IMG/VR virus record: IMGVR_UViG_3300031566_000188
Location: 1-35,554 of that record
Direction: 5' to 3' (one strand)
Source of the DNA: a virus
DNA: 35,554 bases
A model generated the notes under the pieces. That model did no database searches and was not told the DNA's origin. It saw nothing but the letters and a program-made list of their open reading frames with translations. This document shows positions 1 to 34,334 of the stretch, one piece after another (position 1 is the stretch's first letter; every line of letters starts with the position of its first letter). Both the position numbers and the translations under genes were made by a program.

Positions 1-66
1 CGTCCGATAAGTTTCTGGTTCGCGCAAAGAGAAAGGCCCGATAACTCAGGCCCAAGGTCCGATAAT

Positions 67-249
67 TTATGGTTTGTGGATTGTAAGCTTGCCTTCAATA
101 TCGTCATAGTTGCCGATAACATTGAAGAATTCTTCGTCCGATATTCCATTGGTTTTCAGCACGATCTTATTCTCTGGTGTGAATCCGATAACCATGTCGA
201 GTCCGGTTTCGGTACGCACGATGTCGCCGATAACTAGAATGTTCGTCAT
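67..249 (-). CDS. Small hypothetical protein, 60 aa
   Basis: I do not recognise this protein. It is acidic, with three V-I-G tripeptides that are all encoded by copies of the TTATCGG repeat. The ATG at 249 overlaps the neighbourhood of the upstream gene's stop (251-253), and the purine stretch AAAGGGG just before it is a plausible ribosome site. It is the last complete gene of the minus-strand left-end operon; only non-coding sequence is visible between it and the window edge. Its function is unknown. That it is a gene rests on the tight coupling and ribosome site rather than on homology. Confidence 0.65.
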   Translation of the reverse strand: MTNILVIGDIVRTETGLDMVIGFTPENKIVLKTNGISDEEFFNVIGNYDDIEGKLTIHKP

Positions 250-250
250 C

Positions 251-481
251 TTATCGCCCCTTTACCAAACGTCCTATAACAATCTCGCCGGTGGTTGTGT
301 CGTGTCCGATAACCTTTACCTGTGTGTTCGATAACGTAACAACCACGTACCCGTCCTGTTCCGATAACGTCATCGCCGCGATACGTCCCATACCCAGGGC
401 CATAACGTCCGATATTCCATCCAGTTGTGAGGGTCCGATATTTCCGCTTCTCGGGATTTCAATCTTAGCTTTACCGAACAT
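251..481 (-). CDS. Small hypothetical protein, 76 aa
   Basis: No family recognised. The start at 481 is well supported by an AAGGAG site seven bases upstream. The stop lies a base away from the next start, which indicates translational coupling. The protein has a Gly/Met-rich middle followed by a beta-strand-like C-terminal half (alternating Val/Thr), and it ends in a basic KGR. Seven or so GTCCGATAA-type repeats lie inside the frame, encoding ISD, LSE, LSN and VIG in different frames. This shows that the gene tolerates the repeats rather than creating them. Confidence 0.72.
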   Translation of the reverse strand: MFGKAKIEIPRSGNIGPSQLDGISDVMALGMGRIAAMTLSEQDGYVVVTLSNTQVKVIGHDTTTGEIVIGRLVKGR

Positions 482-491
482 TGTTTGCTCC

Positions 492-746
492 TTATCGGCT
501 GCGAGCTACCATTAGGTCTGATAACCAGATACACTCCAAGCAACTCCGATAACTCGGCCAATTCGTCGGAATAATAAATCCGCTCTGTCTGAACACACCA
601 TCTACGTTATCGGTCGTAGAAACGATTTCCGCAGATTCCGATAACCTTAGCCACTGGAGCAAGTCCGATAAGTAGGATGTCGGGATTACTGCGTAGTGAT
701 TGTACCTATAATCCGAAGTCCGATATTTCACGAGTGTCTTGTTCAT
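492..746 (-). CDS. Small hypothetical protein, 84 aa
   Basis: I choose the ATG at 746 (MNKTLVKY) because GGGGAG lies seven bases upstream and the stop codon of the preceding 29-residue gene overlaps it (TAATG). A longer reading from a TTG at 779 has no such support. The product has a Tyr-rich start, a Leu-rich amphipathic middle and no recognisable motif. It lies in the repeat-covered operon between two other small genes. Confidence 0.7.
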   Translation of the reverse strand: MNKTLVKYRTSDYRYNHYAVIPTSYLSDLLQWLRLSESAEIVSTTDNVDGVFRQSGFIIPTNWPSYRSCLECIWLSDLMVARSR

Positions 747-835
747 TATAGGCTCCCCATTTCGTCCAGAATCGACCAAATCTTTATCGCCCCAAGAACA
801 AACAACATACCTAGTCCGATAAACATTGCCGCCAT
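746..835 (-). CDS. Very small membrane protein, 29 aa
   Basis: An open frame begins at ATG 835 with MAAMFIGLGMLF and ends in DEMGSL. Residues 3-20 are strongly hydrophobic and could span a membrane once, followed by a short acidic tail. The ribosome site AAGGGGAG lies seven bases before the ATG, and the stop TAA shares its last base with the next gene's ATG. It is too short for ordinary ORF calling but has the best translation signals of the operon. Small phage membrane peptides often act on host membrane proteins, but nothing here shows a role. Confidence 0.7.
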   Translation of the reverse strand: MAAMFIGLGMLFVLGAIKIWSILDEMGSL

Positions 836-845
836 GATTCTCCCC

Positions 846-959
846 TTAAAGCACCACGTTATTAAGTGCCGCTTGAATGGTAGAAGAAAGATTCAGGAGA
901 AGGCCGATAACCAAGGAACCGATTGTTGTTGCCAAGGTAAGTCCGATAAGCGTCTTCAT
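846..959 (-). CDS. Very small membrane protein, 37 aa; first gene of the left operon
   Basis: The start ATG at 959 follows GGGAGAATGTG, a good ribosome site. A longer in-frame reading from 1037 would begin upstream of the promoter's expected start point and is rejected. The protein (MKTLIGLTLATTIGSLVIG...) is almost entirely hydrophobic over residues 4-25, consistent with one membrane span, then a polar tail. It is the promoter-proximal gene behind the -10 at 1009-1014. The function is not recognisable. The initiation sequence GGGAGAATGTGATGAA also precedes the gene starting at 13925. Confidence 0.68.
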   Translation of the reverse strand: MKTLIGLTLATTIGSLVIGLLLNLSSTIQAALNNVVL

Positions 960-1008
960 CACATTCTCCCGTTCGCGTCCGATAGTCGCCTCGTTTTCCC
1001 TACACCTA

Positions 1009-1037
1009 ATTATAGCATATCTGCCGATCCGATGCAA
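1009..1037 (-). promoter_or_regulatory. Sigma70-type promoter for the left minus-strand operon
   Basis: On the minus strand TTGCAT (1037-1032) is separated by 17 bases from TATAAT (1014-1009), which carries an extended TGC before it. Expected transcription start is about 1002, 43 bases before the first gene at 959. The spacer contains two overlapping ATCGG words related to the GTCCGATAA repeat, so the repeat-binding factor might also act here. Confidence 0.75.
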
Positions 1038-1126
1038 GAACCGAATCTAATATTTTTCACGTCCCATAACCTCGTGTGTCACATGGGTCGGATAGGGTAA
1101 GGTATCGGGATGGTCTGATAACATCT

Positions 1127-1143
1127 CTTGCTCGTCGAGCAAG
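1127..1143. repeat. Perfect inverted repeat CTTGCTCG-t-CGAGCAAG
   Basis: Two exact eight-base arms flank a single central T. A one-base centre cannot form a normal RNA hairpin loop, so the element looks like a dyad DNA site for a dimeric regulator or recombinase. It lies about 90 bases upstream of the minus promoter's -35 and about 280 bases upstream of the plus promoter's -35, flanked by GTCCGATAA-type repeats at 1113 and 1150. Confidence 0.55.
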
Positions 1144-1424
1144 CTGTTGGTCCGATAAGTAGGGTGTGTATGGGGAAGAACCCTGATGGGGTATACCCGT
1201 AATATAAATAAAGTCCGATAACAGATGGTAGGTCCAATAACGCGGGGGCTTGAGGCACAACAGGCCCAATTTCTACACTCCCTACTAAAAAACATATACA
1301 CTCTTTCTTGTACCTCCCGCTTTACCTCCCTCCTTTTCTCCCCCAAAGGGGTACCACCCTTTTCAATCGCCTACAAAAACAGTTTTATCGGTACTAAAAA
1401 CATCGAAAAAAATCGTGGGTAGTG

Positions 1425-3278: not shown

Positions 3279-3317
3279 TCAGTGCTTCGCACTTTACCTA
3301 CTCTTCTGTGTCTCGCT
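3279..3317 (+). ncRNA. Leader hairpin element, copy 4 (shortened)
   Basis: AGTGC-TTC-GCACT is a five-base-pair hairpin, followed by the shared tail TTTACCTACTCTTCTGTGTCTCGC. As in copy 3, the first stem of copies 1, 2 and 5 is absent and only the GCTTCGC hairpin and the tail remain. It directly follows a stop codon and ends at the AAAGGAG ribosome site of the next gene. Confidence 0.6.
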
Positions 3318-4485: not shown

Positions 4486-4749
4486 ATGAAACGAGTGGAA
4501 CGTAAACCAATCCCAGGAAGGGCAACATTTACCGACGCCACAACAACCGCTTTAAGGGCCTCAGTGATTCTGACCATACATTATGCATCCGAAGAGCTAA
4601 AAATCAACAGCCACGATCACAGCGATACCTCAGATGGGGTTCCACTAGCTAACCAGAGACCAGCAACTAGAAATAATAAAGCTGCACAAGAGTGGCAACC
4701 CGCTATTTCGTATTTAGTAAATGGGAAAACACGAATAAGGAAGGAATAA
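4486..4749 (+). CDS. Hypothetical protein, 87 aa, possible ATP-grasp remnant
   Basis: Starts one base after the previous fragment's stop. Most of the sequence is low in secondary-structure signal (Thr/Ala/Asn-rich, with HDHSDTSDG). Residues about 66-72 read AAQEWQP, identical to a seven-residue stretch in the ATP-grasp protein at 10304 (residues 221-227), and the following residues resemble the next strand. It may be a chimera or eroded copy of such a gene. The ribosome site is poor. Low confidence that it makes a working protein. Confidence 0.4.
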   Translation: MKRVERKPIPGRATFTDATTTALRASVILTIHYASEELKINSHDHSDTSDGVPLANQRPATRNNKAAQEWQPAISYLVNGKTRIRKE

Positions 4750-4752
4750 GTT

Positions 4753-4974
4753 ATGGATGGGAAAGTAATGTGTAAAAATTGTAAGTGGTACGGGTATGGT
4801 ACTGGATGTTGGCATCCCGACAGAGCGGTGGAAATAAACTATATAACTGGTGATCGAAGCCACCCATCATGTTATGACTTTAATCGTTCAGGAAATTGTC
4901 ATGAGTATAAGAGGAAAGAGACCGCTTGTGTGCCGTGGTATAAGCGGATTTTTAGACATGCATTGGGGGGATAA
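4753..4974 (+). CDS. Small cysteine-rich protein, 73 aa
   Basis: Six of its seven Cys lie in the first 50 residues (CKNCKWYGYGTGC ... SCYDFNRSGNC), a layout suited to binding a zinc ion. The C-terminal 20 residues are basic and aromatic (CVPWYKRIFRHALGG). This looks like the small zinc-finger-like proteins common in phage early regions, function unknown. AAGGA lies seven bases before the ATG. Confidence 0.65.
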   Translation: MDGKVMCKNCKWYGYGTGCWHPDRAVEINYITGDRSHPSCYDFNRSGNCHEYKRKETACVPWYKRIFRHALGG

Positions 4975-4976
4975 AT

Positions 4977-5135
4977 ATGGAAGTAATCGTTTCATTGTAT
5001 GTGGCTGAAGAAGTGGGTGATATAGTTGAAAAAGAGGATGGGATAGAACTAAAAGCTTCGGCTGTCGCGGAATTTGATTATGGGTCTGGTATAGTGCAAA
5101 TAATACCTACAAATAAGTGTAGAAAGAAGGATTGA
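4977..5135 (+). CDS. Small acidic hypothetical protein, 52 aa
   Basis: ATG at 4977 follows GGGGGGATAA and opens a 52-codon frame: MEVIVSLYVAEEVGDIVE ... to CRKKD. It has an acidic first half and a basic end. The size, spacing to neighbours (2 bases after the previous stop and 4 before the next start) and ribosome site argue that it is real. No family recognised. Confidence 0.55.
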   Translation: MEVIVSLYVAEEVGDIVEKEDGIELKASAVAEFDYGSGIVQIIPTNKCRKKD

Positions 5136-5139
5136 TATA

Positions 5140-5238
5140 ATGGCTAGATGCAATAAGGACCATATGGAATTAACCGATGGTGTTGGTAAGTGCTTTGTAT
5201 TTGGCTTGTCCACACCATGGAGGCCCGCAACAAGATAG
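5140..5238 (+). CDS. Very small protein, 32 aa
   Basis: ATG 5140 with AAGGA ten bases upstream opens MARCNKDHMELTDGVGKCF ... ending PWRPATR. Two Cys separated by 13 residues and a conserved-looking end (STPWRP) suggest a real peptide rather than chance. It lies in the gap before the ATP-grasp gene, within the same run of genes. No function can be stated. Confidence 0.45.
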   Translation: MARCNKDHMELTDGVGKCFVFGLSTPWRPATR

Positions 5239-5256
5239 CCAAGCTGGAGACTGATC

Positions 5257-5979
5257 ATGAATCGAGAAAATCCTGAAAACAGAAGTAGATTGTCTTGGTG
5301 GTTCCCTTGTATCCCTACTGGGATTCTGGTACCAGAAACTATTATTATTCCATATACTGGAGATGATCTAACTCATCTTCTTGATGGCCAGACACCAAAG
5401 GGGTTTGTTGGGTTGGTTGTTAAGATTACAGAAGCAGGCAATAAGCTTGGCTGGCCACTGTTTTTACGTACGGACTATTTGAGTGGCAAACACAATTGGA
5501 AGAAGACGTGCTATATTCCCGTCCCAGGCGATGTTCCGTCCCACGTTGCGCGGTTAGTTGAAGAGAGTGTTATGGCGGACATAATGGGTTTTCCTACCGA
5601 TTGTTGGATAGCTAGGAAACTCATTCCAACGAAACCTGCATTCCATGCCTTTTATGGTGATATGCCGATTGTGAAGGAGCGACGATATTTCGTGCAAGAT
5701 GACCAAGTGGTGTGTCATCACCCTTATTGGCCATCAGAAGTTTTCTATGACACAAAGGTATCTACACAGATTTGGTTTGACAATTTGTGTTATATGAATG
5801 TTGAACCCCCATATGAAGTTGATTGGTTGTCTGAACTCAGTCGTAAGGTTGGTAAAGCGATTGGTGGAGCATGGTCAATAGATTGGCTGCAAGATGAAAA
5901 TTATAAGTGGCACTTAATAGATATGGCCGACGCTGCTCAGAGCTATCATTGGCCAGGATGTGAAAGCAAAATAATCTGA
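5257..5979 (+). CDS. R2K-clade ATP-grasp enzyme, 240 aa
   Basis: ATP-grasp enzymes join a carboxylate to an amine or thiol using ATP. Visible family features are GWPLFLRTDYLSGKHNW (residues 65-81), with the nucleotide-binding Arg/Lys, WIARKLIP (117-124), ERRYFV (141-146) and the acidic metal-binding end AWSIDWLQDE ... HLIDMADA (205-226). This is the layout of the R2K group, which includes CDC123-like proteins and which others have predicted to modify proteins or peptides. GGAG lies nine bases before the ATG. A second R2K gene lies at 10304. Substrate unknown; the family call is fairly secure, the reaction is inferred. Confidence 0.72.
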   Translation: MNRENPENRSRLSWWFPCIPTGILVPETIIIPYTGDDLTHLLDGQTPKGFVGLVVKITEAGNKLGWPLFLRTDYLSGKHNWKKTCYIPVPGDVPSHVARLVEESVMADIMGFPTDCWIARKLIPTKPAFHAFYGDMPIVKERRYFVQDDQVVCHHPYWPSEVFYDTKVSTQIWFDNLCYMNVEPPYEVDWLSELSRKVGKAIGGAWSIDWLQDENYKWHLIDMADAAQSYHWPGCESKII

Positions 5980-5985
5980 TTTAAT

Positions 5986-6015
5986 TGGAATATTGGGTCG
6001 GGTTGAACGTATAAT
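5986..6015 (+). promoter_or_regulatory. Class A phage promoter
   Basis: TGGAAT (5986-5991), 18 bases, TATAAT (6010-6015) preceded by AACG, closely matching the promoter at 1425-1454 including the following TAAGGTAGCA. Transcription should start near 6022, at the leader hairpin. Confidence 0.75.
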
Positions 6016-6060
6016 AAGGTAGCAGCATCGTGCTGCTCTCAGAGCTTCGCACTTTTATAC
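6016..6060 (+). ncRNA. 5' leader hairpin element, copy 5
   Basis: AAGGT then AGCAGCA-TCG-TGCTGCT, a perfect seven-base-pair hairpin, then CTCAGAGCTTCGCACTTTTATAC. The stem bases differ from those of copies 1 and 2 but remain complementary. As in copy 1, the hairpin lies at the predicted 5' end of a transcript from a class A promoter. Confidence 0.7.
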
Positions 6061-6071
6061 TGGAGAGACAA

Positions 6072-6260
6072 ATGGCTGGAAGTCCTTACGATCCGGGATG
6101 TAAGCCTCAAGCAGATTTTGGGGATACTACAACTACAATCAATATTCGTTTCAGGGAATTGAAGAGAAATATTGCTGCTTTACAAAAGCGGATCGATGAT
6201 TTAGAGGAACGGATGGATAGGATTCCGGGGTGTCCTGGTACTAGTGGACGAGGTGATTGA
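6072..6260 (+). CDS. Small coiled-coil protein, 62 aa
   Basis: ATG 6072 follows TGGAGAGACAA; an upstream in-frame start at 6030 would lie within the leader hairpin. After a Pro/Gly-rich start, residues about 25-55 (INIRFRELKRNIAALQKRIDDLEERMDRI) have heptad-like spacing of hydrophobics, so a short coiled coil and oligomerisation are likely. The stop TGA overlaps the next ATG. No function recognised. Confidence 0.6.
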   Translation: MAGSPYDPGCKPQADFGDTTTTINIRFRELKRNIAALQKRIDDLEERMDRIPGCPGTSGRGD

Positions 6261-6490
6261 TGAAGTTTACGATAGCAGAAAGAACAATCAATTATCATTA
6301 TGTGGTTTATTACACTGATGAGAATGGCAACCACAATCTTGGTGACATATATTTTAATGAGCATGAACGTACTTGTAAGGTACGTTTTTACGGTTGGAGT
6401 CATGGAATACCGTTAGAAGATTTATCAGATATACTCGAAGGAATTGCGGACCTCAATGTGGTGGTCATGGCGAGATTAAGTAATGGTTGA
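6260..6490 (+). CDS. Hypothetical protein, 76 aa
   Basis: The start ATG 6260 overlaps the previous stop (TGATG) and follows GAGGTG. The sequence is beta-rich (INYHYVVYYTDENGNHNLGDIYF), then a short helix (PLEDLSDILEGIADL) and a last strand (VVVMARL). The family is not recognised. The stop is embedded in the next gene's leader hairpin, so translation termination and hairpin folding are physically linked. Confidence 0.6.
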   Translation: MKFTIAERTINYHYVVYYTDENGNHNLGDIYFNEHERTCKVRFYGWSHGIPLEDLSDILEGIADLNVVVMARLSNG

Positions 6491-6512
6491 TTTGCACATA
6501 AATCACTGGAGG
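6489..6512 (+). promoter_or_regulatory. Hairpin directly upstream of a ribosome site, copy 1
   Basis: GATTTG-CACA-TAAATC (6489-6504) can fold as six base pairs with one G-U pair, followed at once by ACTGGAGG and the ATG at 6519. The same unit with changed loop and stem bases precedes the gene at 6852. It probably tunes translation or protects the transcript. Confidence 0.6.
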
Positions 6513-6518
6513 TACTAA

Positions 6519-6812
6519 ATGGGTATCAAGCATTGTGGATTTTGGTTTGTTTTTATTATATGCGTGTTTTTGGTTATAGGTATGTTGGGTACGTTTGGAT
6601 ATGTTACTTGGAGCGAGAAAATAAATCCATGTATATGTAGCCAACTATTGTCTTCGGGGACTATTTCACCAAATATATTTATAGTTCGATATTTTATGGA
6701 TTGTGAGGGTTCTAGGAAACTGAGTAAAGCACCTTGTTGTGGTCGCCGTGAGGTGACAGAAGCAGAATATAACCGTATAATATATGATTTGATACCAAAT
6801 GGAGTACAATAG
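6519..6812 (+). CDS. Small membrane-anchored protein, 97 aa
   Basis: Residues 7-30 (GFWFVFIICVFLVIGMLGTFGYV) form one strong hydrophobic segment near the N-terminus, then a 65-residue domain with four Cys, including PCIC and APCCGRRE. It could be an inner-membrane protein with its C-terminal part outside, or an uncleaved signal anchor. GGAGG lies six bases before the ATG. No family recognised. Confidence 0.6.
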   Translation: MGIKHCGFWFVFIICVFLVIGMLGTFGYVTWSEKINPCICSQLLSSGTISPNIFIVRYFMDCEGSRKLSKAPCCGRREVTEAEYNRIIYDLIPNGVQ

Positions 6813-6820
6813 TGATTGCT

Positions 6821-6844
6821 GATTTGTACACAAATCACTGGAGG
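6821..6844 (+). promoter_or_regulatory. Hairpin directly upstream of a ribosome site, copy 2
   Basis: GATTTG-TACA-CAAATC (6821-6836) is a perfect six-base-pair hairpin, again followed immediately by ACTGGAGG. Compared with copy 1, the closing pair changes from G-U to G-C, which supports a functional fold. Confidence 0.6.
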
Positions 6845-6851
6845 ATCGAAA

Positions 6852-7121
6852 ATGAGATGTTTTTGTTGCGACCGTGTCTTGAATGCTGAGAGTACCGACA
6901 ATCCCTTAGTCATTACCCCAGTTTATGATGGCTTAATCTTTAGGGCTACAGGTAATTTCGGGTCCACTGTTTTTGATCCTATGCCGATCGGTATTGAAGA
7001 GATGCTTCAGATTGTTATCTGCGATGAATGCGTGAGGCAAAAGGCAGAGCGGGTGACACGACCGTACAACATTAAGAGAGAAGAGACTGCGGATAGTGGG
7101 GAGTTTGATCCTGATGCATAA
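6852..7121 (+). CDS. Small zinc-finger-like protein, 89 aa
   Basis: The ATG at 6852, eight bases after GGAGG, gives MRCFCCDRVLNAES; the longer frame from 6816 runs through the hairpin and is rejected. The start CFCCDRVL and the later ICDECVRQKAER (about residues 57-69) form a CxxC...CxxC pair typical of a zinc-binding knuckle. The C-terminus is charged. The role is unknown. It overlaps the next gene by eight bases. Confidence 0.62.
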   Translation: MRCFCCDRVLNAESTDNPLVITPVYDGLIFRATGNFGSTVFDPMPIGIEEMLQIVICDECVRQKAERVTRPYNIKREETADSGEFDPDA

Positions 7122-7347
7122 GTTACTGTGTTTCGAGACTTGTCCGAGATGTGTTCATGTGCACAGATTGCCCATTAGTAGATCAAAATATTGGCCGATT
7201 GAACAAATATTAGAACCCATGGTTTTATCTGGGGATGATAGAGAGATGCAATGTAGTGTTTGTAATCACAGTTTTAAGTTACCAGATTGCGAAGCTGTGC
7301 GGGATATGGCACGACACCGAAGGGGTGTAAAATATGATGGCAGATAA
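7114..7347 (+). CDS. Small zinc-ribbon-like protein, 77 aa
   Basis: I take ATG 7114 (MHKLLCFETCPRC), with GGGGAG upstream; a GTG at 7096 is possible. CPRC near the start and CSVCNHSF (about residue 52) make a CxxC/CxxC zinc ribbon. The rest is basic at the end (RDMARHRRGVKYDGR). It lies in a run of four small Cys-rich proteins. No function recognised. Confidence 0.6.
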   Translation: MHKLLCFETCPRCVHVHRLPISRSKYWPIEQILEPMVLSGDDREMQCSVCNHSFKLPDCEAVRDMARHRRGVKYDGR

Positions 7348-7371
7348 TTTTGTTATTGATTGGATAGACCA

Positions 7372-7791
7372 ATGTGTGAATGTGGATGTATGGCGTGTAG
7401 TAAAATGTATAAACTTAAAGCTCCGGGTGGTTGGTATGTTTTTCAAATGAACCATGGATGTGATGATTGTGGCGTTGGGCCGACCATTCATATTAGTATG
7501 CCCGAAACATCCAGACTATATTTTGAAGAAGAATTAGATTATATACATTTGATACCGACTATAGGTTCTGGCAAAGAAACTATTGCTGTTATTAAGTGTG
7601 GGATTCCAAAAGATCAAGCAGCAAATTTGGCTACCAAAACAATGGCTGGTTCCGAGACCGAAGATAATAAGATTGATGAATATTTGGCCGAGGTTTTGGG
7701 TGAGGAGTTTTGGCAAGAAGCCATGCGGCAGGCACCTGATTTTGTACAACCAATAGGAGAAAATAGTGGTGATTGTGAGGTGGCGTGTTAA
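7372..7791 (+). CDS. Cys-rich hypothetical protein, about 139 aa
   Basis: The N-terminus MCECGCMACSKMYKL and the later GCDDCGVGP provide seven Cys in the first 40 residues, suggesting metal binding. The C-terminal half is acidic and helical (IDEYLAEVLGEEFWQEAM). The start is uncertain: ATG 7372 has no ribosome site, and TTG 7360 is also possible. A better ribosome site (AAGGGG) serves ATG 7334 in another frame, encoding MMADNFVIDWIDQC, which stops after 38 codons. This arrangement could mean coupling, a frameshift error or a true frameshift. Confidence 0.55.
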   Translation: MCECGCMACSKMYKLKAPGGWYVFQMNHGCDDCGVGPTIHISMPETSRLYFEEELDYIHLIPTIGSGKETIAVIKCGIPKDQAANLATKTMAGSETEDNKIDEYLAEVLGEEFWQEAMRQAPDFVQPIGENSGDCEVAC

Positions 7792-8225
7792 TGCAAAGAC
7801 ACAAAGATGATACTAGGTATAAGAAACATTGTGTTCTGTGTGGTAAGCTCTTATTGCGTTATGAAAACTATTGGGATGGTCATAGAAATGAGCGTGGCGA
7901 TTTAGTTGAAAGACACAATAATAATAGGACACCAAATGGGTATCAATGTGTGTCGTGTGATTTTGAAGAAAAGGCTGAAGATATGAAATTGAAAGCTCCA
8001 GTGTATACGTTAGAAGGGTCTGTTGGTTACCCAGATTTATTGGCTCAGTTGAATATTGCTTGTGCCGACCCAGAGGAAAAGATGAAAGCATCTGTGCCTA
8101 TTAGTCGAAATACAGCGGGAGGAAAAACAACTATTGGTTACGGTGTAGATAAAACACAAAGAAGCATAGCTGCCGATAGTGTTATATCCATTGCTAAGGC
8201 TATTAAGGCTTTGAAGGGTTGGTAA
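7791..8225 (+). CDS. Hypothetical protein with zinc knuckles, 144 aa
   Basis: The ATG overlaps the preceding stop (TTAATG) and follows GAGGTGG. CVLCGKLL (about residues 15-22) and CVSCDFEE (about 53-60) form a CxxC pair that likely binds zinc. The C-terminal part has a helix (SVISIAKAIKALKGW). No enzyme motif. The family is not recognised. Confidence 0.58.
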   Translation: MQRHKDDTRYKKHCVLCGKLLLRYENYWDGHRNERGDLVERHNNNRTPNGYQCVSCDFEEKAEDMKLKAPVYTLEGSVGYPDLLAQLNIACADPEEKMKASVPISRNTAGGKTTIGYGVDKTQRSIAADSVISIAKAIKALKGW

Positions 8226-8438
8226 ATGAAACGATTTATATTCAGATACGATAAAGAATACCCCAAGGGCTTTGTGATGGGGTTGCGATTACACAATTGG
8301 TCCATTGCAATATGGCTTGGTTATGGCAAGCCAATTTGGTGGAAACCACGATTTATTGGTAGTGGACGTACTGAATATGGATTTGGATTTGGTTGGTTGT
8401 TTTGGTGTTTACGTTGGTCGATGAGAAAGAAAGGTTAG
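8226..8438 (+). CDS. Aromatic-rich small protein, 70 aa
   Basis: The sequence is very rich in Trp, Phe, Tyr and Gly (WSIAIWLGYGKPIWW, FGFGWLFWCLRW) and basic. It starts one base after the previous stop. It may be membrane-associated through the last hydrophobic stretch (about residues 52-66), but the aromatic/Gly pattern also fits a small beta sheet. No family recognised. Confidence 0.55.
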   Translation: MKRFIFRYDKEYPKGFVMGLRLHNWSIAIWLGYGKPIWWKPRFIGSGRTEYGFGFGWLFWCLRWSMRKKG

Positions 8439-8445
8439 GTGTAGT

Positions 8446-8643
8446 ATGAAGATTGGTGATATGGTTAGGGTTACGAAGTGCGATGTTTGCCCGAAAGTTG
8501 TTGGTAAGACAGCAAAGATTACTGGAATTACAGAATCTGATGCGGGGGTCAGTTCTGTCATGGTCAATTTTGGGAAGGGTCGTCCGCAACTGAATCGTCC
8601 GACTCAGTTCTCTCCTAGTGATATGGAACTTGTTACGGAGTAA
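8446..8643 (+). CDS. Small SH3-like barrel protein, 65 aa
   Basis: MKIGDMVRVTKCDVCP ... GKTAKITGI ... SVMVNFGKGRP ... FSPSDMELV follows the pattern of a small KOW/SH3-type beta-barrel: a Gly-Asp turn, strand, Gly-Lys-x-(A/G)-x-I and a final strand before a short helix. It resembles each half of the protein at 3394. AGGTG precedes the ATG. It probably binds a macromolecule; nothing more can be said. Confidence 0.58.
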   Translation: MKIGDMVRVTKCDVCPKVVGKTAKITGITESDAGVSSVMVNFGKGRPQLNRPTQFSPSDMELVTE

Positions 8644-8647
8644 ATAA

Positions 8648-9838
8648 ATGAAGATTGTTGCCCTTGAAGCAGAGAACATTAAATATCTGAAAGCCATCCG
8701 CGTGGCGCCAGATGGCTCCTTGGTAATTGTTGGTGGAGATAATTCACAAGGTAAAAGTTGTGTTTTAGATTCTATCGAATATGCCCTTAACGGAGCAGGG
8801 AGTCTTCCTGCCAAGCCAATTCGTGCAGGACAGAAAAAGGCTCGTGTGGTTTTGGATTTGGGTGATATTCAAGTCACTCGGACGTTCACTGCCAAGGGTA
8901 CGAACCTTGTGGTTAAAAGTAAGGATGGGGCTACGTTCCCATCACCCCAGGCTATGCTTGACAAGTTGGTGGGGAAACTAACTTTTGATCCGCTAGAGTT
9001 TTCGAAGATGGATGCCACGAAGAGGGTTGAGGTTCTGAAGAAGTTAGTTGGATTGGACTTCGACAAGTTAGATGCTCAACACAAGAAGCTTTTTGACGAA
9101 AGGACTATGGTTAATAGGAAAGGCAAAGACCTTAAAAGTCGTCTGGAGGGTAACACCAAATATGACGGGGTGCCAGACAAAGAAGTTTCCGTACAAAAAT
9201 TGGGCGATGATTATGCGAAGGCTCTTGAGCACAATCAAAAACTAGATATTGCCCAACGCGCGATTAATGCTGAAACAGATGAGCTAGAGCGACTTCAGAA
9301 GAGGATTGTAGTATTAACCAAGAGCATTGCCCAGAAGACGAAGGCTCTTCAGGGTGCGAAGAAAGTGGATGCGCAATCCATCAATGCTCAGATGGCCGAA
9401 GCAGAAAGTGTCAATGCTAAAATACGCAGTAATGCAGCATATGCTCTGGTTGATAAGGAATTGGTTGAACTACGGAAGCAATCTGGCTCATTGAGTTCTC
9501 AAATGACCAAAATTACTACAGACAAAGAGAAGGCTTTATGCAAAGCTAAGTTTCCTATCGAGGGATTGGCGATAGATGATGATGGAGTTACTTTTGAAGA
9601 CATTCCATTTGACCAGTGCTCAACATCTCAACAAATTAAGATATCTGTTGCTATGGGTTTGGCCATGAATCCAAAATTGCGAGTTATTTTGATACGGGAA
9701 GGATCACTATTGGACAACAAAAACTTGGCGATGGTAGCTGACATGGCCGCAGAGGCCGATGCACAGATTTGGTGTGAGAGGGTGAGTAAGGGTAGTGAGT
9801 GTTCAGTTATCATAGAGGATGGAGAGGTACAGGAGTAA
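8648..9838 (+). CDS. Rad50/SMC-like ATPase, 396 aa
   Basis: The N-terminus has a P-loop, GGDNSQGKS (residues 29-37). The central part (about 145-300) is a short Lys/Glu/Ala-rich helical region, probably a coiled coil. The C-terminal head has STSQQIKISVAMGLA in place of the usual LSGGQ signature, and RVILIREGSLLD as the Walker B region, with Arg-Glu where Asp-Glu is usual. This is the AAA_23/SbcC-like group found in phages, which work in DNA recombination or repair with a partner nuclease. No Mre11-like nuclease is next to it; an ERCC4 nuclease lies at 22766. At 396 residues it is far shorter than cellular SbcC because the coiled coil is short. Confidence 0.78.
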   Translation: MKIVALEAENIKYLKAIRVAPDGSLVIVGGDNSQGKSCVLDSIEYALNGAGSLPAKPIRAGQKKARVVLDLGDIQVTRTFTAKGTNLVVKSKDGATFPSPQAMLDKLVGKLTFDPLEFSKMDATKRVEVLKKLVGLDFDKLDAQHKKLFDERTMVNRKGKDLKSRLEGNTKYDGVPDKEVSVQKLGDDYAKALEHNQKLDIAQRAINAETDELERLQKRIVVLTKSIAQKTKALQGAKKVDAQSINAQMAEAESVNAKIRSNAAYALVDKELVELRKQSGSLSSQMTKITTDKEKALCKAKFPIEGLAIDDDGVTFEDIPFDQCSTSQQIKISVAMGLAMNPKLRVILIREGSLLDNKNLAMVADMAAEADAQIWCERVSKGSECSVIIEDGEVQE

Positions 9839-10064: not shown

Positions 10065-10307
10065 ATGCCTGAATACCAATACACCGAATCCAATAAGATG
10101 TTCGCAGACCTATGTATCAGAATTGAGCGTATGTGTAGATACTCTCCGCTAGACACAGAAGAGATGGACTGGTGTGTCATGAAGGATCGAGATGTAATAG
10201 CTGGACTTTATAAGTTCTACAGAGACCAGGGTGATGATGAGAAAATAGCTGCCAGGAAAGCACGGATTAGTGGTATAAGATTTGTGTTAAATGAGGTGTT
10301 AACATGA
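10065..10307 (+). CDS. Hypothetical helical protein, 80 aa
   Basis: I use ATG 10065 (MPEYQYTESNKMFADL); a GTG at 9987 would overlap the previous gene. The sequence is mostly helical and acidic-basic mixed, with MCRYSPLDTEEMDWCVMKDRD in the middle and a Lys/Arg-rich end. The stop overlaps the next ATG (ATGA), so it is coupled to the ATP-grasp gene. Function unknown. Confidence 0.5.
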   Translation: MPEYQYTESNKMFADLCIRIERMCRYSPLDTEEMDWCVMKDRDVIAGLYKFYRDQGDDEKIAARKARISGIRFVLNEVLT

Positions 10308-11143
10308 AACCGGCTTGGTTAATACAAACTAATATGGATGGTGTGGATACACGCCCCATGATAGCAGAGGTTCGTCGCCAGGGTATGCGAGCGATAGAGA
10401 CAGAGCACAGTTTGGTACGCAAGATTGATTTTCTTCGAATTGCTGGAGTACACGGTGATACTGATGGCAGTTTTTTGGATTTGAAAAATCCACACCTCCG
10501 TGTTGTATGTTATGGTGATATAGATTTTGTGCGACAAATACAACGAACTGTATTTGTGCCAGGTGCCTATTGTAATTTCGACAATATGAAATGTAGTACT
10601 TATTATGCATATCTTGGTGGGCACTTACTGAACAAAGATTATCTGATGCTTCCAGTGGGTGATTTGTTGAGGCGATGGGACGGGTTAATAGTAAGCAACT
10701 TCAATCGACCCCTTTTCATACGACCGAGTAGTGGTGCTAAGCCCTTTACTGGATATGTAGTAGAACCAGAAGGACGCGACAAAATCCAAACGTTGATCGA
10801 AACGGTTGGTCCAGATACGTTGGTCGTTGTAGCTCCAGAGAAAGAAATAACAATCGAGTGGCGCTTTGTAATCTGTGATGGAAAAGTTGTAACTGGCTGT
10901 CAATATTTGCCGATAGAACAGGAGGGCTGGTCAACCCCATCTTTGTGTCTGGCCAGTAAGATTGCTGCCCAAGAGTGGCAACCTGACCGATGCTATACGG
11001 TAGATATAGCCGAATCAGAGGGCGAAGTATACCTGCTGGAAATCAATAGCTTTGGCTGCGCAGGATTTTACAAATGTGATGTTAAACAGATTGTACGATG
11101 TGCTAGTGAGGCTGCGGTGAATGAATGGAAAGAATATTGTTAG
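10304..11143 (+). CDS. R2K-clade ATP-grasp enzyme (DUF4343-like), 279 aa
   Basis: The family core is clear: PLFIRPSSGAKPFTG (residues 136-150) with Arg140 and Lys146 for ATP phosphates, VAPEKEITIEWRFVI (176-190), then YTVDIAESEG (231-240) and EVYLLEINSFGCAGFY (241-256), where Asp234, Glu246 and Asn248 should bind magnesium. The N-terminal 120 residues form the pre-ATP-grasp part. The fold joins a carboxylate to an amine; R2K proteins are predicted protein or peptide modifiers. It is a distant paralog of the gene at 5257. Translation is coupled to the gene before it. The substrate is not indicated by neighbours, which include the DUF4406-like gene just downstream. Confidence 0.78.
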   Translation: MKPAWLIQTNMDGVDTRPMIAEVRRQGMRAIETEHSLVRKIDFLRIAGVHGDTDGSFLDLKNPHLRVVCYGDIDFVRQIQRTVFVPGAYCNFDNMKCSTYYAYLGGHLLNKDYLMLPVGDLLRRWDGLIVSNFNRPLFIRPSSGAKPFTGYVVEPEGRDKIQTLIETVGPDTLVVVAPEKEITIEWRFVICDGKVVTGCQYLPIEQEGWSTPSLCLASKIAAQEWQPDRCYTVDIAESEGEVYLLEINSFGCAGFYKCDVKQIVRCASEAAVNEWKEYC

Positions 11144-11660: not shown

Positions 11661-12080
11661 CTAAGAATAGTCTGTGGCTAAATCTTCCCATTTGTCGACC
11701 GACATGTCTGCTGTATGGTGACAATCTTTGCATAGATACAATAATAGAAACGGTTTTGAATGATCTACGTGATGAGCTTCGATTCCATCTTGTTTGTAAC
11801 AAATTTCACATTCCCCTAATGGAATGAGTTGGCCTGATTTTATTGCTTGTCTCACGAGGTATCTAGCGTGATTTTTTTCTGGAAATTTTTCTTTATCTTT
11901 CCTTGTGTTGACAGCGTTTGCTGTAGTAGGTTCACATCTGCGGGGTTCGTTGGCTAGGGCAGATGCACATTTTCTTGAACAACAATGTTTTTTCCCCAGT
12001 TTCTCTGTTTGGGTAATTCTCTTGCAATCTTTTTTGAAAGTTTTACCACACCACTCACATTCTAGTTTTAATTTAGCCAT
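11661..12080 (-). CDS. HNH-type endonuclease, 139 aa
   Basis: Two Cys-rich parts are visible: CEWCGKTFKK ... CCSRKCASA (residues 8-42), a zinc finger, and CEICYKQDGIEAHHVDHSK ... CKDCHHTAD (about 92-126), an HNH core where the HH pair and the CxxC knuckles hold the metal site. Such phage enzymes nick or cut DNA and are often homing endonucleases. Its ATG lies eight bases inside the end of the preceding endonuclease gene, so the two are translated together. It is the last gene of the minus-strand block. Confidence 0.75.
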   Translation of the reverse strand: MAKLKLECEWCGKTFKKDCKRITQTEKLGKKHCCSRKCASALANEPRRCEPTTANAVNTRKDKEKFPEKNHARYLVRQAIKSGQLIPLGECEICYKQDGIEAHHVDHSKPFLLLYLCKDCHHTADMSVDKWEDLATDYS

Positions 12081-12708
12081 TTGTTTTCACAGGAATGGTC
12101 AAAGCTTTTTTAATTGACCAATTACGATTAAGGCGACCCAAAAGAGTTCCTGGATTAATGTTGAATTCTTCAGCCCAAGCTGAGACGCATTGAGTTCTAT
12201 TGTTATATGTCACTGGGTGATTATTATTCCTGTTTCTTTGTTGTTGTTTTGGTGTTGACCATTTACAGTTTGCTTTGAAATATCCTTTATTATTATTCAT
12301 TCTGTCGATCTGGTGCCCCTTTGGTGCCTCACCCATATCATTCAAGAAATTGATGAATTTCATCCACTGTGCACAGACCGTGATCCCTCTGCCACCATAA
12401 CGTTTATATCTTTTATTATTTGGGTTGGTACATCTTTGTATCATATCATGCCATATTGAATAAGTTTTACATTTTTCTTTTCTTTTAGCATAACCATGCT
12501 TTGTTGACCTTTGTACTATTTTTTCCTTATTTAGACACCCACAACTTTGAGTATCACCCCTTCTAAGATTTATACCCAAAATAACTACTTCTTTTTTGCA
12601 ACTACACAAGCACAACCATCTTAAATGTCCATGCTTATTTCTTCCGGATAGTTTAATTACAATTAGTCTTCCGAATCTTTTTCCTGTTAGATCAATTAGC
12701 TTAGGCAT
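12073..12708 (-). CDS. HNH/AP2-type homing endonuclease, copy 1, 211 aa
   Basis: ATG 12708 has AAAGGTGG upstream, 4 bases after the RlaP-like gene's stop. The protein begins with a zinc-binding part (LCLCSCKKEVVILG ... TQSCGC, about residues 30-60) and continues with the widespread phage pattern WHDMIQRCTNPNN ... YGGRGITVCAQW ... DMGEAPKGHQIDRMNNNKGY ... NCKWSTPKQQQRNR, a degenerate HNH core. The C-terminal 50 residues likely recognise DNA. It is a paralog of the gene at 16964, sharing most of these motifs. Both look like mobile insertions at gene boundaries. Confidence 0.75.
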   Translation of the reverse strand: MPKLIDLTGKRFGRLIVIKLSGRNKHGHLRWLCLCSCKKEVVILGINLRRGDTQSCGCLNKEKIVQRSTKHGYAKRKEKCKTYSIWHDMIQRCTNPNNKRYKRYGGRGITVCAQWMKFINFLNDMGEAPKGHQIDRMNNNKGYFKANCKWSTPKQQQRNRNNNHPVTYNNRTQCVSAWAEEFNINPGTLLGRLNRNWSIKKALTIPVKTNG

Positions 12709-12712
12709 ATTA

Positions 12713-13630
12713 CTACCACCTTTCCCACCGCTCTTTATACTTTTCGGCATAGTCCCTGAAGCGTTTATCACAATATACGGTGTGGGCTACGATTTCGTGG
12801 TACATAGTTCTTATCTGTTTGATCGGTGCATTCATCGGCAGATCGGTGTTTTCTGTCGCGTGATCCGCTCTTTCCTTAGCGTCTTCATAGAGTTTCTTTA
12901 CCCTCTCGAATGGTAACTCACCACGCTTGATCATCAAGAGTCGTTTTGCTTGAGGACGTGGGAATGTAAGTTTGCCTGTTTGCATGAGTTCTCTCAGTTG
13001 TCCTAAAAGACGGATAGTATGACAGGCACTAGATGTACAATACCCGTGGCGTTCAATCTGGGCCTTACGCTTCGCCCCCAGTTTGCGTCTGGCGGGCCTG
13101 GTCTCTCTCGGATGTTGCATGAACAATAGACGTATTATTTCATCCATCTCTTCCTTCTGCGGATGGAATACGGCGCGAATATCTTCGACGACTTCGTCTT
13201 CGTTGTGTGTGCGTTTAACTGGTACTAGTTGGGTGCCCGTGACCTTGCGCCATTCTGACTGGGCATATCCGCTAATACGGCGTGCGAATCGCTTACAGGC
13301 GAATAGTTCTCGACTGCGAAGTAAGATGCCGCCTATAGCAGTACGTTCGATGATATTGGTTTCAGGGGCAAATAGGATTTCATAGCAGATTGGGTCGCCC
13401 ATAATTAGTAGTTCGATAAATCGTTGAAGGGAGTAGATTATTGTGTCTGGGTCTCGGATGACTCGGTGTTCAAATCTATCTAGTCCAGCGAGATATTCGA
13501 AAGGTGGTACCACAAAACCACGATAGTCATAATCGCTATTTGATGTATCTGTTCCATATAGGCGAGACCCAGCAACGATTAACAGGTCTGGGTTGTCTAT
13601 TTTGTGGGCTAGCGCATTCTCTTGGTTCAT
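12713..13630 (-). CDS. RlaP-like nucleotidyltransferase, 305 aa
   Basis: GSRLYGTDTSNSDYDYRGFVVPP (starting residue 21) is the pol-beta-type nucleotidyltransferase signature: Gly21-Ser22 holds the triphosphate, and Asp33 and Asp35 bind metal. The Arg-Gly-x-x-x-Pro ending and the following helical domain are typical of the family of predicted nucleotidyltransferases associated with RNA repair (PF10127-like). Such enzymes transfer a nucleotide to RNA or another acceptor; tRNA end repair in infected cells is a plausible role but not shown here. The C-terminal half is basic. There is no strong ribosome site before ATG 13630. The gene is followed closely by two endonuclease genes. Confidence 0.75.
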   Translation of the reverse strand: MNQENALAHKIDNPDLLIVAGSRLYGTDTSNSDYDYRGFVVPPFEYLAGLDRFEHRVIRDPDTIIYSLQRFIELLIMGDPICYEILFAPETNIIERTAIGGILLRSRELFACKRFARRISGYAQSEWRKVTGTQLVPVKRTHNEDEVVEDIRAVFHPQKEEMDEIIRLLFMQHPRETRPARRKLGAKRKAQIERHGYCTSSACHTIRLLGQLRELMQTGKLTFPRPQAKRLLMIKRGELPFERVKKLYEDAKERADHATENTDLPMNAPIKQIRTMYHEIVAHTVYCDKRFRDYAEKYKERWERW

Positions 13631-16199: not shown

Positions 16200-16971
16200 C
16201 AATTTCTCCGTCATGGTTTTTATTGAAATGTTTCTTAGCTTCATCCATACTGTCGTGAAGTTTTTTACTATGATCAGCAACATCGTTTGGAGTTAGACCG
16301 GCAAATGTAAGTTCCCAAAATATACTGGTAATGAAACACCACAGTGTAGGGTCAATGGTTAATTGGAACCCGGTGCGGTGAAATTCGCGGTCAGACTCAA
16401 CATATGGTGGGAAGAACTCAACTTCTGGACAAATACGGATAGGTAGATGGGCAAGATTATTCAGCGGAGTGAACTCTATTGCATATCCCTGGTCTTTGGG
16501 GCAGTCATCGCCGCATTCATGGAAATCACAACTCTTTGCGGGGCAACCTGGTCCTACCCCGTGAAACCCCATCAGATTGGATAGGTCGCAAATTTTTGGA
16601 TGGTCCCAATAATTGTATCCATTATCCATCATGGGACAATTGCCAACTGGTTGATCGGTTGATTTGCCTGTTTGTTTGGTCATGCGAGTATCGTAGTCTG
16701 GATGCCAATAAAGTTCCAGATATGTAATATCGTTGATGTCATCTTGGTCTCGATCTAGATTAATTTGATCCCAGAATGCATGAAACTCAAGCATACCCAT
16801 GGTTGCAAAAATACCTGGGATCATATGATTGGCATGATATACTAAGCGGAACAGGTCGTAAAGTGTAAAATCAGTCGCAACACTGGTTACTGTCCATTGC
16901 AAATCTGTTGGTAAAAAATCTTTGTAATAATCTTTGGTCAAATGTATCCCATCGCTTACGCTATCAGACAT
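16180..16971 (-). CDS. Cys/His-containing hypothetical protein, 263 aa
   Basis: The family is not recognised. The N-terminal 80 residues are helical and aromatic. A central segment (about residues 105-170) has many Cys and His: GNCPMMDNGYNYW ... HGVGPGCPAKSCDFHECGDDCPKDQGY, which could bind one or two metal ions. The C-terminal third has a helix-rich region and an acidic tail. The start overlaps the end of the HNH/AP2-type gene upstream by eight bases. It may be a phage-specific structural or regulatory protein; nothing supports a sharper call. Confidence 0.6.
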   Translation of the reverse strand: MSDSVSDGIHLTKDYYKDFLPTDLQWTVTSVATDFTLYDLFRLVYHANHMIPGIFATMGMLEFHAFWDQINLDRDQDDINDITYLELYWHPDYDTRMTKQTGKSTDQPVGNCPMMDNGYNYWDHPKICDLSNLMGFHGVGPGCPAKSCDFHECGDDCPKDQGYAIEFTPLNNLAHLPIRICPEVEFFPPYVESDREFHRTGFQLTIDPTLWCFITSIFWELTFAGLTPNDVADHSKKLHDSMDEAKKHFNKNHDGEIDDEPIS

Positions 16972-17617
16972 GTCTCCAGTTCCTTTTTTTTAGGACCACA
17001 GGTGTTGTTAATGTTTTTTCGATAGACCAATCATATCGATAAATTCGTGCATATAAAGTTTTATAGGGAATTTTAGTTTCTTCTGACCATTCCACCAAAA
17101 GTTGTGTTTTCCCGTTATGTGTTACACGAAGATTATTGCGCCTATTTCTCGCTTGTTTTTGGGGAGTAGTCCATGTGCAATTATCTTTATAGTATCCCTT
17201 GTTATTATCTATACGTTCTATAGTATAGCCCTTGGGTTGTTTTCCCATGTCTGCAAAGAAATTGGGAAATTTTAACCATTCCTCACAGACAGTAATTCCT
17301 CGACCACCATAGTTTTTTTGTTGTTTGTTATTTGGATTAGTGCATCGTTGAATCATTGCTGCCCATATTGCATAAATTTTATCATTACGATGACCATGTT
17401 TCGTATGGCAAGCAGATGCTATTTCTTTCCATAAACATCCACAGCTTTGTGTATGATTACTCTGAAGATTAGAACCAAGAACAATTATTTGATTTTTATT
17501 TGGACAGTTGCACTGACACAACCACTTAGAATTGCCCCATTTGTCGTTATCTACCCTTCGGATAACAGCCAATCTCCCAAATTTTTTATTAGTTAAATTT
17601 ATGGCACAGGACATCAT
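16964..17617 (-). CDS. HNH/AP2-type homing endonuclease, copy 2, 217 aa
   Basis: Same architecture as the gene at 12073: a zinc-binding start (LCQCNCPNKNQIIVLG ... TQSCGC), then WAAMIQRCTNPNN ... YGGRGITVCEEW ... DMGKQPKGYTIERIDNNKGYY ... NCTWTTPQKQARNR, and a C-terminal part ending in WSIEKTLTTPV, which is WSIKKALTIPV in the paralog. It starts two bases after the methyltransferase stop and overlaps the next gene. This fits a gene inserted precisely at a junction without disturbing neighbours. Activity is inferred from the family. Confidence 0.75.
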   Translation of the reverse strand: MMSCAINLTNKKFGRLAVIRRVDNDKWGNSKWLCQCNCPNKNQIIVLGSNLQSNHTQSCGCLWKEIASACHTKHGHRNDKIYAIWAAMIQRCTNPNNKQQKNYGGRGITVCEEWLKFPNFFADMGKQPKGYTIERIDNNKGYYKDNCTWTTPQKQARNRRNNLRVTHNGKTQLLVEWSEETKIPYKTLYARIYRYDWSIEKTLTTPVVLKKRNWRHV

Positions 17618-22765: not shown

Positions 22766-23311
22766 ATGCCAAGACTTATACTTCCTAGTTACACCGTGAT
22801 AAAAGACACTAGAGAACAAGAGGGATATGGTTGGACATTTACTGCGCATGTTCCAGATCGTCGTCCGCCAAGATGCGCCGGTATGATTATAGATACTTTG
22901 CAAACAGGTGACTACAGTTTGGTTGGCTACACCGACATATTGGCGATTGAGCGCAAATTTGCTTTTTCTGAATTATGGGGAAACTATAGCAGTAAAAAAA
23001 GACCCGCATTTGAAGCCGAAATGGAACGCATGTCTCACATGAAACATTCTTACATAATTATTGAATCGTTATTTACTCCAGATATTCTAGAGTTGTCACC
23101 ACCACAATTTGTTAAGGGTGTTCCTGGCAAATCTATGGTAAGATGGTTAATGTATCTATCGGCCAAATATGGTGTGCATATTATTCCGGCAGGTGCGTGT
23201 AGTCGCAAAATTGTACAGATGATTTTCGAAGAGGTGGTTCGCGTAGAAAAGGATCGTTGGGTTCAACAGCAACCAAAAGATAAACCACAGGAGAATTGTC
23301 TTGGGAACTAA
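22766..23311 (+). CDS. ERCC4/XPF-type nuclease, 181 aa
   Basis: IKDTREQEGYGWTF (about residues 12-25), DTLQTGDYSLVGYTDILAIERK (43-64) and RPAFEAEMERMSHM ... SYIIIES (79-100) form the ERCC4 nuclease core: Asp13 and the GDYS/ERK set supply metal ligands and the catalytic Lys. The family cuts branched or flap DNA. Free-standing phage copies are thought to resolve recombination intermediates or trim DNA before packaging. It overlaps TerL's start by 11 bases, fitting a packaging or DNA-end role. The second half (KSMVRWLMYLSAKYGVHIIPAG) completes the fold. Confidence 0.8.
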   Translation: MPRLILPSYTVIKDTREQEGYGWTFTAHVPDRRPPRCAGMIIDTLQTGDYSLVGYTDILAIERKFAFSELWGNYSSKKRPAFEAEMERMSHMKHSYIIIESLFTPDILELSPPQFVKGVPGKSMVRWLMYLSAKYGVHIIPAGACSRKIVQMIFEEVVRVEKDRWVQQQPKDKPQENCLGN

Positions 23312-26300: not shown

Positions 26301-26546
26301 AAAGGAAGATTACTCAAAGATAGGTACATTGCCCTATTAATAGCGCACAAATATATTTATGATACCGAAACAACTCCAGACACTGACATAGATTATGAAG
26401 ATGTGCCAGGTAATATAGAGAAACGTACGAAACCAAAGGAAAACGAACCGTTATATCGTGGACCTGGGGTGGGTCGTATGCGCAATTCTCAACACACACG
26501 CAACGGTGGCGTTTATAAAGCAATAAAAAGAGGTAAGCAATTTTAA
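23301..26546 (+). CDS. Terminase large subunit precursor with intein, 1081 aa
   Basis: The start is TTG at 23301, supported by ACAGGAG eight to nine bases upstream. The N-terminal ATPase has the Walker A variant ACRGGSKS (93-100) and Walker B NVVIADE (191-197). The C-terminal nuclease has YVMGVDPAAERDHLAI (first Asp), IEMDSQGGGYAV (second Asp) and KDRYIALLIA (third Asp). Together they cut concatemers and drive DNA into the prohead. A 383-residue intein (residues 349-731) interrupts the protein between YLMEYGA and CFVKDSDGFYP; after splicing, 698 residues remain, a normal length. The ERCC4 nuclease gene overlaps its start. A class B promoter for portal follows directly. Confidence 0.93.
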   Translation: MGTKVTLQELLYGIQGEYGHLFPFRDRVPTIKKHIFTDLKQSKDSFDRVIVKRMLDIRYIGWTAKVLLGIDLFPIQIAILQIMWNSPFPMLIACRGGSKSFMLAVYSVLRALLDPGTKIVIVGAGLRQARLVFNYIDTIWSQSPILRNICGGGKKSGPRQSVDLCYFKIGDSIIYALPMGDGTKIRGFRANVVIADEFASIPEDVFDIVVRGFAATAKTPVEEAKKLAFEKQLAKLDLPSDVKTQLTTNDHKMHGNQIVYSGTAYYAFNHFAKKYAMWQDIICSQGDKDKISQIFGGDNLVPDGFNYKDYCIIRIPHTHLPDGLLDQRQLAHAKATLPKNIYLMEYGACASKDLVVHTKLGVKPIIDVNVGDQVLSHTGQYRSVTQRKYRRYVGDMINIKMGNDDTICVTPNHLFWNGEEFIRADKLVVGSMLSIPRPSLIDYCRFDLCEFCDNYREQNYDGKDYVYPMPSMAVHTDIVAKSQTSTKYYRRGQKFKSSVPRYIESSYDLGLILGCYAADGSVGAEGKQMEIAFNISQQDRATRFATAIKNVFGLKSHFHPRQGDNTLRVCVNSRIVCDFIKKIIGVGSSTKKIYRLEQFTKSMACGFIAGYWMGDGSISRYNVVAASVSRQLLEDIRFLLLATGCYGGISPRLPHICCIRGKRYNSKPSWRLYVPANYRQKFLAIIDNKCSTESIYVPVREKTISTYDDYVYNLEVEEDHSYFANGAIHHNCFVKDSDGFYPRSLIEGCTVGPNKPIDTPDGAITFTPLMRGQSKRKYVMGVDPAAERDHLAITMIEVWPNHRRIVYCWSVNKKEFLDRKKKGLITDDDYYAYCCAKIREIVRLFGPVRIEMDSQGGGYAVAEMLRNKKLLDINEGDFPIYEVIDFDEPKETDGETDGRHILHLIAASTQYNQEANIALHKSLETRTLLFPAFDSVKMYAAIEAEKSMGVVFDTYEENVFNLEELKNELCTIQMSETATGKEKFDTPQVIKAGAVEGRSRKGRLLKDRYIALLIAHKYIYDTETTPDTDIDYEDVPGNIEKRTKPKENEPLYRGPGVGRMRNSQHTRNGGVYKAIKRGKQF
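24345..25493 (+). mobile_element. Intein with LAGLIDADG homing endonuclease inside TerL (383 aa)
   Basis: The insert starts at Cys349 (CASKDLVVHTKLG) and ends with HHN just before Cys732, the standard residues for protein splicing. Block B is seen as TICVTPNH (406-413), with His413. The DOD endonuclease motifs LGLILGCYAADGSV (509-522, Asp519) and GFIAGYWMGDGSI (606-618, Asp615) are intact, and block F is YVYNLEVEEDHSYF before the ANGAIHHN end. The intein is therefore probably able both to splice and to home into intein-less terminase genes. It sits between the ATPase and nuclease domains, so splicing is needed for packaging. Confidence 0.92.
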
Positions 26547-34185: not shown

Positions 34186-34196
34186 TTAATACAATC

Positions 34197-34254: not shown

Positions 34255-34255
34255 T

Positions 34256-34266: not shown

Positions 34267-34334
34267 AACTAGTGAAAGGTCTTTTTCTTATAGAATTAAA
34301 AATAATATACGCTTAATTTTAATTTAATATAATA

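Follow-up and report, generated by a model that had tools for sequence, protein, structure and literature searches.

Introduction

The integrases of phages lambda and L5 bind, through an N-terminal arm domain, arm-type sites that consist of a few short direct repeats around one attP. The known use of Xer recombinases by phages is integration at dif-like attP sites (PMC5357621). Published dif sites, written as XerC arm, core, and XerD arm, include AGGTCCGATAA-CATGCG-TTATGTAAACT of Myxococcus xanthus and ACGTCCGATAA-TATGGA-TTATGGTAACT of Anaeromyxobacter, and the XerC arm reads GTCCCATAA in Geobacter and Desulfovibrio and GTCCTATAA in Syntrophus (PMC2731167). A different kind of repeated phage site, the stoperator of L5, is a 13-bp sequence dispersed over the genome and bound by the phage immunity repressor (PMC9283540). 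Here we compare with these systems a dense array of about thirty short (9-11 bp), similarly oriented words in an uncultivated phage, which may represent solitary XerC arms.

Results

The window, i.e. the whole 35,554-bp stretch analyzed here, is a complete IMG/VR record, so its first position marks a contig end, which truncates the array found there. Between positions 1 and 1240, the hexamer CCGATA occurs 21 times on the plus strand (at 4-1220) and 3 times on the minus strand, compared with a mean of 0.72 and a maximum of 5 for this stretch in 2000 runs of a first-order Markov model. The remainder of the window contains 18 copies, both strands summed, which is near background (~ 13.7 expected over the whole window by shuffling). 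The longer word GTCCGATA is present in 13 copies and the full word GTCCGATAA in 8 copies, all on the plus strand. These counts agree with an earlier note on this DNA, which had reported 21 cores and 13 longer words, far above chance, in nearly uniform orientation, irregularly spaced, inside and between genes, and in three frames; we observed all of these features. Exact copies of GTCCGATAA lie at 2-10, 57-65, 304-312, 663-671, 814-822, 941-949, and 1150-1158, and another one belongs to a right-hand pair, GTCCGATAA-N10-GTCCAATAA at 1213-1240 of the plus strand, which is kept in relatives with N8-N10. Two copies of GTCCGATAT, 26 bp apart, are found at 407-441 of the same strand, within the open reading frame at 251-481. 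When one mismatch from GTCCGATAA was allowed, 26 sites were counted in 2-1240, 25 on the plus strand and 1 on the minus strand, and from word counts, consensus, and register we regard them as putative XerC-arm-like half-sites. The variants GTCC[C/T]ATAA and GTCTGATAA are also enriched in the arrays.

The words are located between and within tiny open reading frames of the minus strand, where they are translated as VIG, LSD, or YRT, one tripeptide per frame. These include a 60-aa frame at 67-249, with words read as VIG, two tiny conserved genes that lie within the array in five relatives as well (251-481, 76 aa, 44-64% identity, always within the array; 492-746, 84 aa, 41-53% identity), and a frame at 846-959 for a hydrophobic 37-aa peptide (MKTLIGLTLATTIGSLVIGLL...). 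The possibility that these genes encode the protein that binds the array was rejected, as they are missing from other word-bearing phages. In array genes, the three tripeptides are ~ 27 times commoner per residue and are written in the codons of the word in 28 of 43 cases versus 4 of 88 elsewhere in the same genomes; judging from this codon choice, words over the tiny conserved genes are selected at the DNA level. The distances between words are also constrained. Start-to-start spacings below 14 bp are nearly absent, with almost none below 18 bp in phages of the window's group, and a period of 10.5-11 bp is evident, the spacings peaking at ~ 15 (or 18), 25, and 35 bp both in the window group and, separately, in the other group. 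This exclusion and helical phasing indicate that a protein probably binds the words, and the phased spacing is the pattern expected of adjacent monomers that all occupy the same DNA face.

An alignment of the right end of the array revealed the following order: leftward promoter, words, palindrome, word pair, ~ 200 bp free of words, inverted word, and rightward -10 element. The predicted leftward promoter (minus strand, 1009-1037) is sigma70-like, TTGCAT-17-TATAAT, and sequence reading and alignment place it in relatives too. The palindrome CTTGCTCGTCGAGCAAG at 1127-1143 (CTTGC-NN-GTC-NN-GCAAG) and a conserved A-tract adjoin the array. Among relatives, the stem bases of this palindrome are compensated (CTTGCATGTCATGCAAG, CTTGCACGTCGTGCAAG) around a constant GTC centre, a hint that single-stranded nucleic acid forms a hairpin here and that this is not a dimer site. 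The lone inverted word TTATCGGTA, at 1385-1393 of the minus strand and replaced by TTATCGGAC or TTATAGGAC in several relatives, is upstream of the rightward promoter, whose -10 TATAAT (plus strand, 1449-1454, in the conserved ACGTATAATAAGATAGC) starts the divergent right operon. The word itself was rejected as a promoter motif, as no strongly phased -10 was found near the words. In the right operon, the intergenic element GAGCTTCGCACTTTACCTACTCTTTTGTGTCTTGC is repeated at 1486-1523, 1965-2002, 2480-2516, and 3282-3317, before several genes, and in relatives it occurs after the rightward promoter as well.

The window is part of an uncultivated tailed phage of ~ 160-180 kb. Its right part encodes terminase, portal, and head proteins, and relatives by portal protein include contigs of 113-181 kb, one of which (G004) has ends that overlap by 127 bp and reads as circular. 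The genes of another relative, G010, specify PolIII alpha, DnaB helicase, a Toprim protein, RecA, ribonucleotide reductase, and ThyX. Searches for cultured relatives with the array DNA or the portal gave no match, nor did those with a DNA element and a large virion protein of another word-bearing phage. Several other features of the window were observed. The terminase frame at 23301-26546 comprises 1081 aa, versus ~ 704 aa in G010, with endonuclease/intein-like matches in its middle, and probably carries an intein or homing insertion. Two related HNH endonuclease genes (12073-12771 and 16964-17617) belong to a minus-strand block that also encodes a head maturation protease and a DNA methyltransferase. 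Genes for ATP-grasp proteins (R2K clade) are present at 10304-11143 and 5257-5979, the second being a weak match, and an AAA/SMC-like ATPase gene at 8648-9838.

Every large relative that covers the locus possesses the array, which extends over 1-5 kb with ~ 90% of the words one way. Clusters of exact GTCCGATAA are located at 4739-8835 in G010 and 62009-66376 in G005, and on the minus strand at 155344-157683 in G003, 33311-34335 in G008, 50061-53449 in G004, and 33188-35667 in G016. Over 16 arrays, 208 exact words have one orientation versus 19 the opposite, and the word is conserved across phages with proteins that are 44-80% identical. The core idea of the earlier note, a dense, oriented array of asymmetric protein sites in one place, is thus borne out by clustering and by conservation in relatives; equal density over the genome, or loss of the words in related phages, would have spoken against it, and we found instead that the words are confined to clusters of 1-5 kb and that the large relatives keep the array. 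A distant relative, G015 (portal 35% identity), is without it. Contigs of many relatives break near the array, at differing distances, and in G010 (L191, ~ 8450-8700) a 17-bp unit, GTCACGAGGTAGGTAGG, repeated 16 times in tandem, is inserted in the right end of the array.

IMG/VR was scanned completely for stretches in which three exact words are separated by gaps of 12-42 bp. Of the 64 stretches retrieved, 55 are unrelated in the sequences that flank the words. The phage group of the window accounts for ~ 15 of the 64, and the carriers, with GC contents of 33% to 60%, are mostly unrelated phages. Three of them (L056, L020, and G023) have a T7-like terminase, as judged by eye alone, and the 97.9-kb phage G024 contains 44 exact words. 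In several carriers the cluster separates the last late gene from the early genes. Six loci (L010, L077, L085, L107, L110, and L119) share a four-site element with spacings of 29-30, 24, and 26 bp and differing sequence between the sites. In many phages both orientations occur, and some show head-to-head dyads, TTATCGGAC-N(1-2)-GTCCGATAA. G012 has nine words in tandem, mostly at exactly 23 bp, at a contig start (L215, 1-199) and a perfect dyad, TTATCGGAC-CG-GTCCGATAA, near a contig end (L229). No such sites were found in the cultured Myxococcus phage Mx8. Transposon ends were rejected as an explanation, as the word does not bound elements.

The position weight matrix (PWM) of the 11-bp site, built from 595 array sites, has the consensus ACGTCCGATAA. 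Applied to 24 dif sites (22 from PMC2731167 and 2 from PMC3025954), it gave top scores, always at offset 0, to the XerC arms of Myxococcus, Anaeromyxobacter, Geobacter, Syntrophus, and Desulfovibrio, with p of ~ 5e-6 to 2.5e-5 per random 11-mer, and no score to the XerD arms of the same sites. The arm variants GTCCCATAA and GTCCTATAA are the same variants that are enriched in the arrays. In GTDB, the pattern TCCNATAA-N6-TTATGNNAA was found in 32 of 78 Myxococcota genomes, where it mostly reads TCCGATAA, and a reversed-pattern control in 0; dif-like sites with TCCNATAA were found in 12 of 119 Planctomycetota genomes (control, 4 genomes). Independently fetched Myxococcota flanks read A[C/T]GTCC, with A at 0.77, C at 0.47 or T at 0.37, and G at 0.97 before TCC. 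These comparisons identify ACGTCCGATAA, in exact register, as the arm bound by XerC in the dif sites of Myxococcota, of some Planctomycetota, and of further former delta-proteobacteria. Neither this identity nor the sharing of the word by unrelated phages was part of the earlier note. A Phycisphaerales MAG (G029) has one dif-like site with the arm AAGTCCGATAA, and its bin includes the word-bearing phage contig L294. Ten dif-like sites, possibly dif modules or Xer-exploiting elements, were found in one Myxococcota genome (G235).

The arrays lack the other parts of dif. No dif-like site (core and XerD arm TTATGTnAA) was detected in 13 phage genomes or contigs or in any of the viral loci tested, XerD arms were not found in the arrays, and no exact words face each other at the core spacing of a XerC/XerC pair (15-17 bp). 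With XerD arms and the 6-bp core missing, the array cannot recombine. The flanking bases differ as well: after ATAA, the arrays prefer C (0.44-0.51) and Myxococcota dif has G or T, and at position -1 T is disfavoured in the arrays but not in dif. We predicted that the commonest XerC arm of beta/gamma-proteobacteria (TCGCATAA/GCGCATAA) would form arrays as well, but a scan for its clusters yielded only tandem repeats, so this is not a general XerC-arm phenomenon; the failure lowers our confidence. The match to dif, two occurrences of the 9-mer in one table of dif sites (PMC2731167), came from a text search for 9-mers over millions of papers with hits in 455, which carries a look-elsewhere cost.

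In search of the binder, we identified no protein family common to all word-bearing phages. The large phages G001-G010 and G050 encode a ~ 295-aa XerC/XerD-type recombinase with the usual C-terminal motifs; its closest structures in the PDB are XerC-like and XerD structures, and by profile it falls between XerC and XerD, slightly better as XerD and below both cut-offs. The window does not extend as far as this gene. Three smaller circular phages with word clusters (G022, G023, and G024) are without a tyrosine recombinase, on which ground integrase arm sites were rejected, and this finding, together with the lack of a gene common to the carriers, indicates a host protein. Shared HNH-AP2-like genes look like mobile endonucleases and were rejected as the binder.

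Discussion

We propose that solitary XerC half-sites make up the array and that it serves, at the early-gene region, as a platform for host XerC and/or a phage Xer protein. Based on sequence comparison, we consider this reading fairly probable; the beta/gamma and Mx8 null results, the mismatch in flanking bases, and the breadth of the text search keep us from a stronger statement. Each word would be the 11-bp left arm of dif, to which a single Xer recombinase monomer would bind; neighbouring monomers would lie on the same DNA face, in helical phase. Host XerC would be the simplest binder common to all carriers, and the large phages probably add their own Xer-like recombinase, which may bind too. 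Bound XerC could then occlude or time the tiny-gene operon and the origin-proximal region, where early transcription diverges. Alternatively, XerC could be held away from dif and from competing Xer-dependent elements as phage copies rise. Location, orientation, phasing, and the fixed geometry of the L010 set fit occupancy, and copy number and the tolerance of any coding frame fit capture. We favour occupancy, with regulation or occlusion as the primary role and capture as a possible consequence of phage replication. Of the roles suggested in the earlier note, a regulator sink or operon silencing may still apply.

The main alternative is a stoperator-type array, in which a repressor-like phage or host protein other than Xer blocks initiation and elongation in the tiny-gene operon and the match to dif is coincidental. 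The words run one way relative to leftward transcription, through the operon and around both promoters, they are asymmetric as in L5, and the head-to-head dyads of some phages would suit a dimer. Nevertheless, the carriers, at 33-60% GC, share no repressor family, the sites are gathered in one or two clusters instead of being spread over the genome, and the match to XerC arms extends over 11 bp in exact register, so that we judge this explanation unlikely.

We give still less weight to a replication origin whose initiator binds the words as iterons. The array is at the cumulative GC-skew minimum in G004, G005, and G010, which is compatible with the replication site guessed at in the earlier note, the words of G022 have an iteron-like period of 15 bp, and the A-tract and palindrome lie alongside. 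However, the skew tracks gene direction, even through an inverted gene block, so that the minimum marks the divergence of transcription, which explains it equally well, and is no proof of an origin. In addition, the clusters of G022 and G024 do not coincide with the skew minimum, there is no common initiator gene, and a search for DnaA domain IV gave nothing above the cut-off and one sub-threshold match (G014).

It is very doubtful that the word works at the RNA level, its transcript (UUAUCGGAC) serving to bind a protein or as a sponge. The orientation of the word agrees with the leftward transcripts and it lies within coding sequence, but many phages have both orientations and head-to-head dyads, the spacing is helically phased, and the words do not thin out upstream of the leftward promoter, evidence for DNA and not RNA. 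Functionless minisatellite expansion, suggested by the 23-bp tandem of G012 and by the host matches (those listed from GTDB are mostly coding 21-nt repeats or minisatellites), hardly deserves consideration given the codon-level selection, the conservation of the word across diverged phages, and its unrelated flanks, versus none in the 11 and 9 stretches (0/11 and 0/9) of two control words.

If XerC is the binder, phages target a housekeeping recombinase, or use it as a co-factor, in a context other than recombination. The array would then be a natural trap for XerC, and uncultivated phages could be tied to hosts by dif type through a simple word search. If XerC is not the binder, the array is still a sequence-specific control element common to dozens of unrelated uncultivated phages. 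A wider proposal, which we find about as easy to doubt as to believe, is one of convergence, in which unrelated phages that infect hosts with a GTCC-type dif have each assembled arrays of solitary XerC half-sites at their early genes, using the host's XerC as a bound, non-recombining factor (decoy, roadblock, or regulator), the largest phages bringing their own Xer.

Among the described systems, dif of delta-proteobacteria and Myxococcota has the same 11-bp XerC arm ACGTCCGATAA and the same ATAA boundary, and it likewise tolerates C or T in place of the G that is the fifth base of GTCCGATAA. In contrast, dif is present in one copy at the chromosome terminus, whereas the array has tens of copies at the phage skew minimum and neither XerD arm nor core. 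CTXphi, VGJphi, and TLCphi likewise carry DNA recognised by host Xer recombinases, but in the form of one or two dif-like attP sites for integration; in the array phages we found solitary XerC arms and no dif-like attP. The arm-type sites of lambda Int and L5 Int are also short direct repeats for a tyrosine recombinase, but the phage Xer described here is without an arm domain. The stoperators of L5 and cluster A phages are likewise short, asymmetric, and numerous, and follow the direction of transcription within and around the early region, and the comparison drawn in the earlier note is a fair one for layout; it fails for sequence, which is unrelated, and for distribution, as the L5 sites are genome-wide and the array words clustered in 1-5 kb. 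Arrays of solitary XerC or Xer half-sites were not found in the literature searched, and for every known type of element compared, at least one defining feature is missing from the array. Clusters of the same half-site in dozens of mostly unrelated phages suggest a new way in which phages capture or exploit a host recombinase with no DNA recombination.
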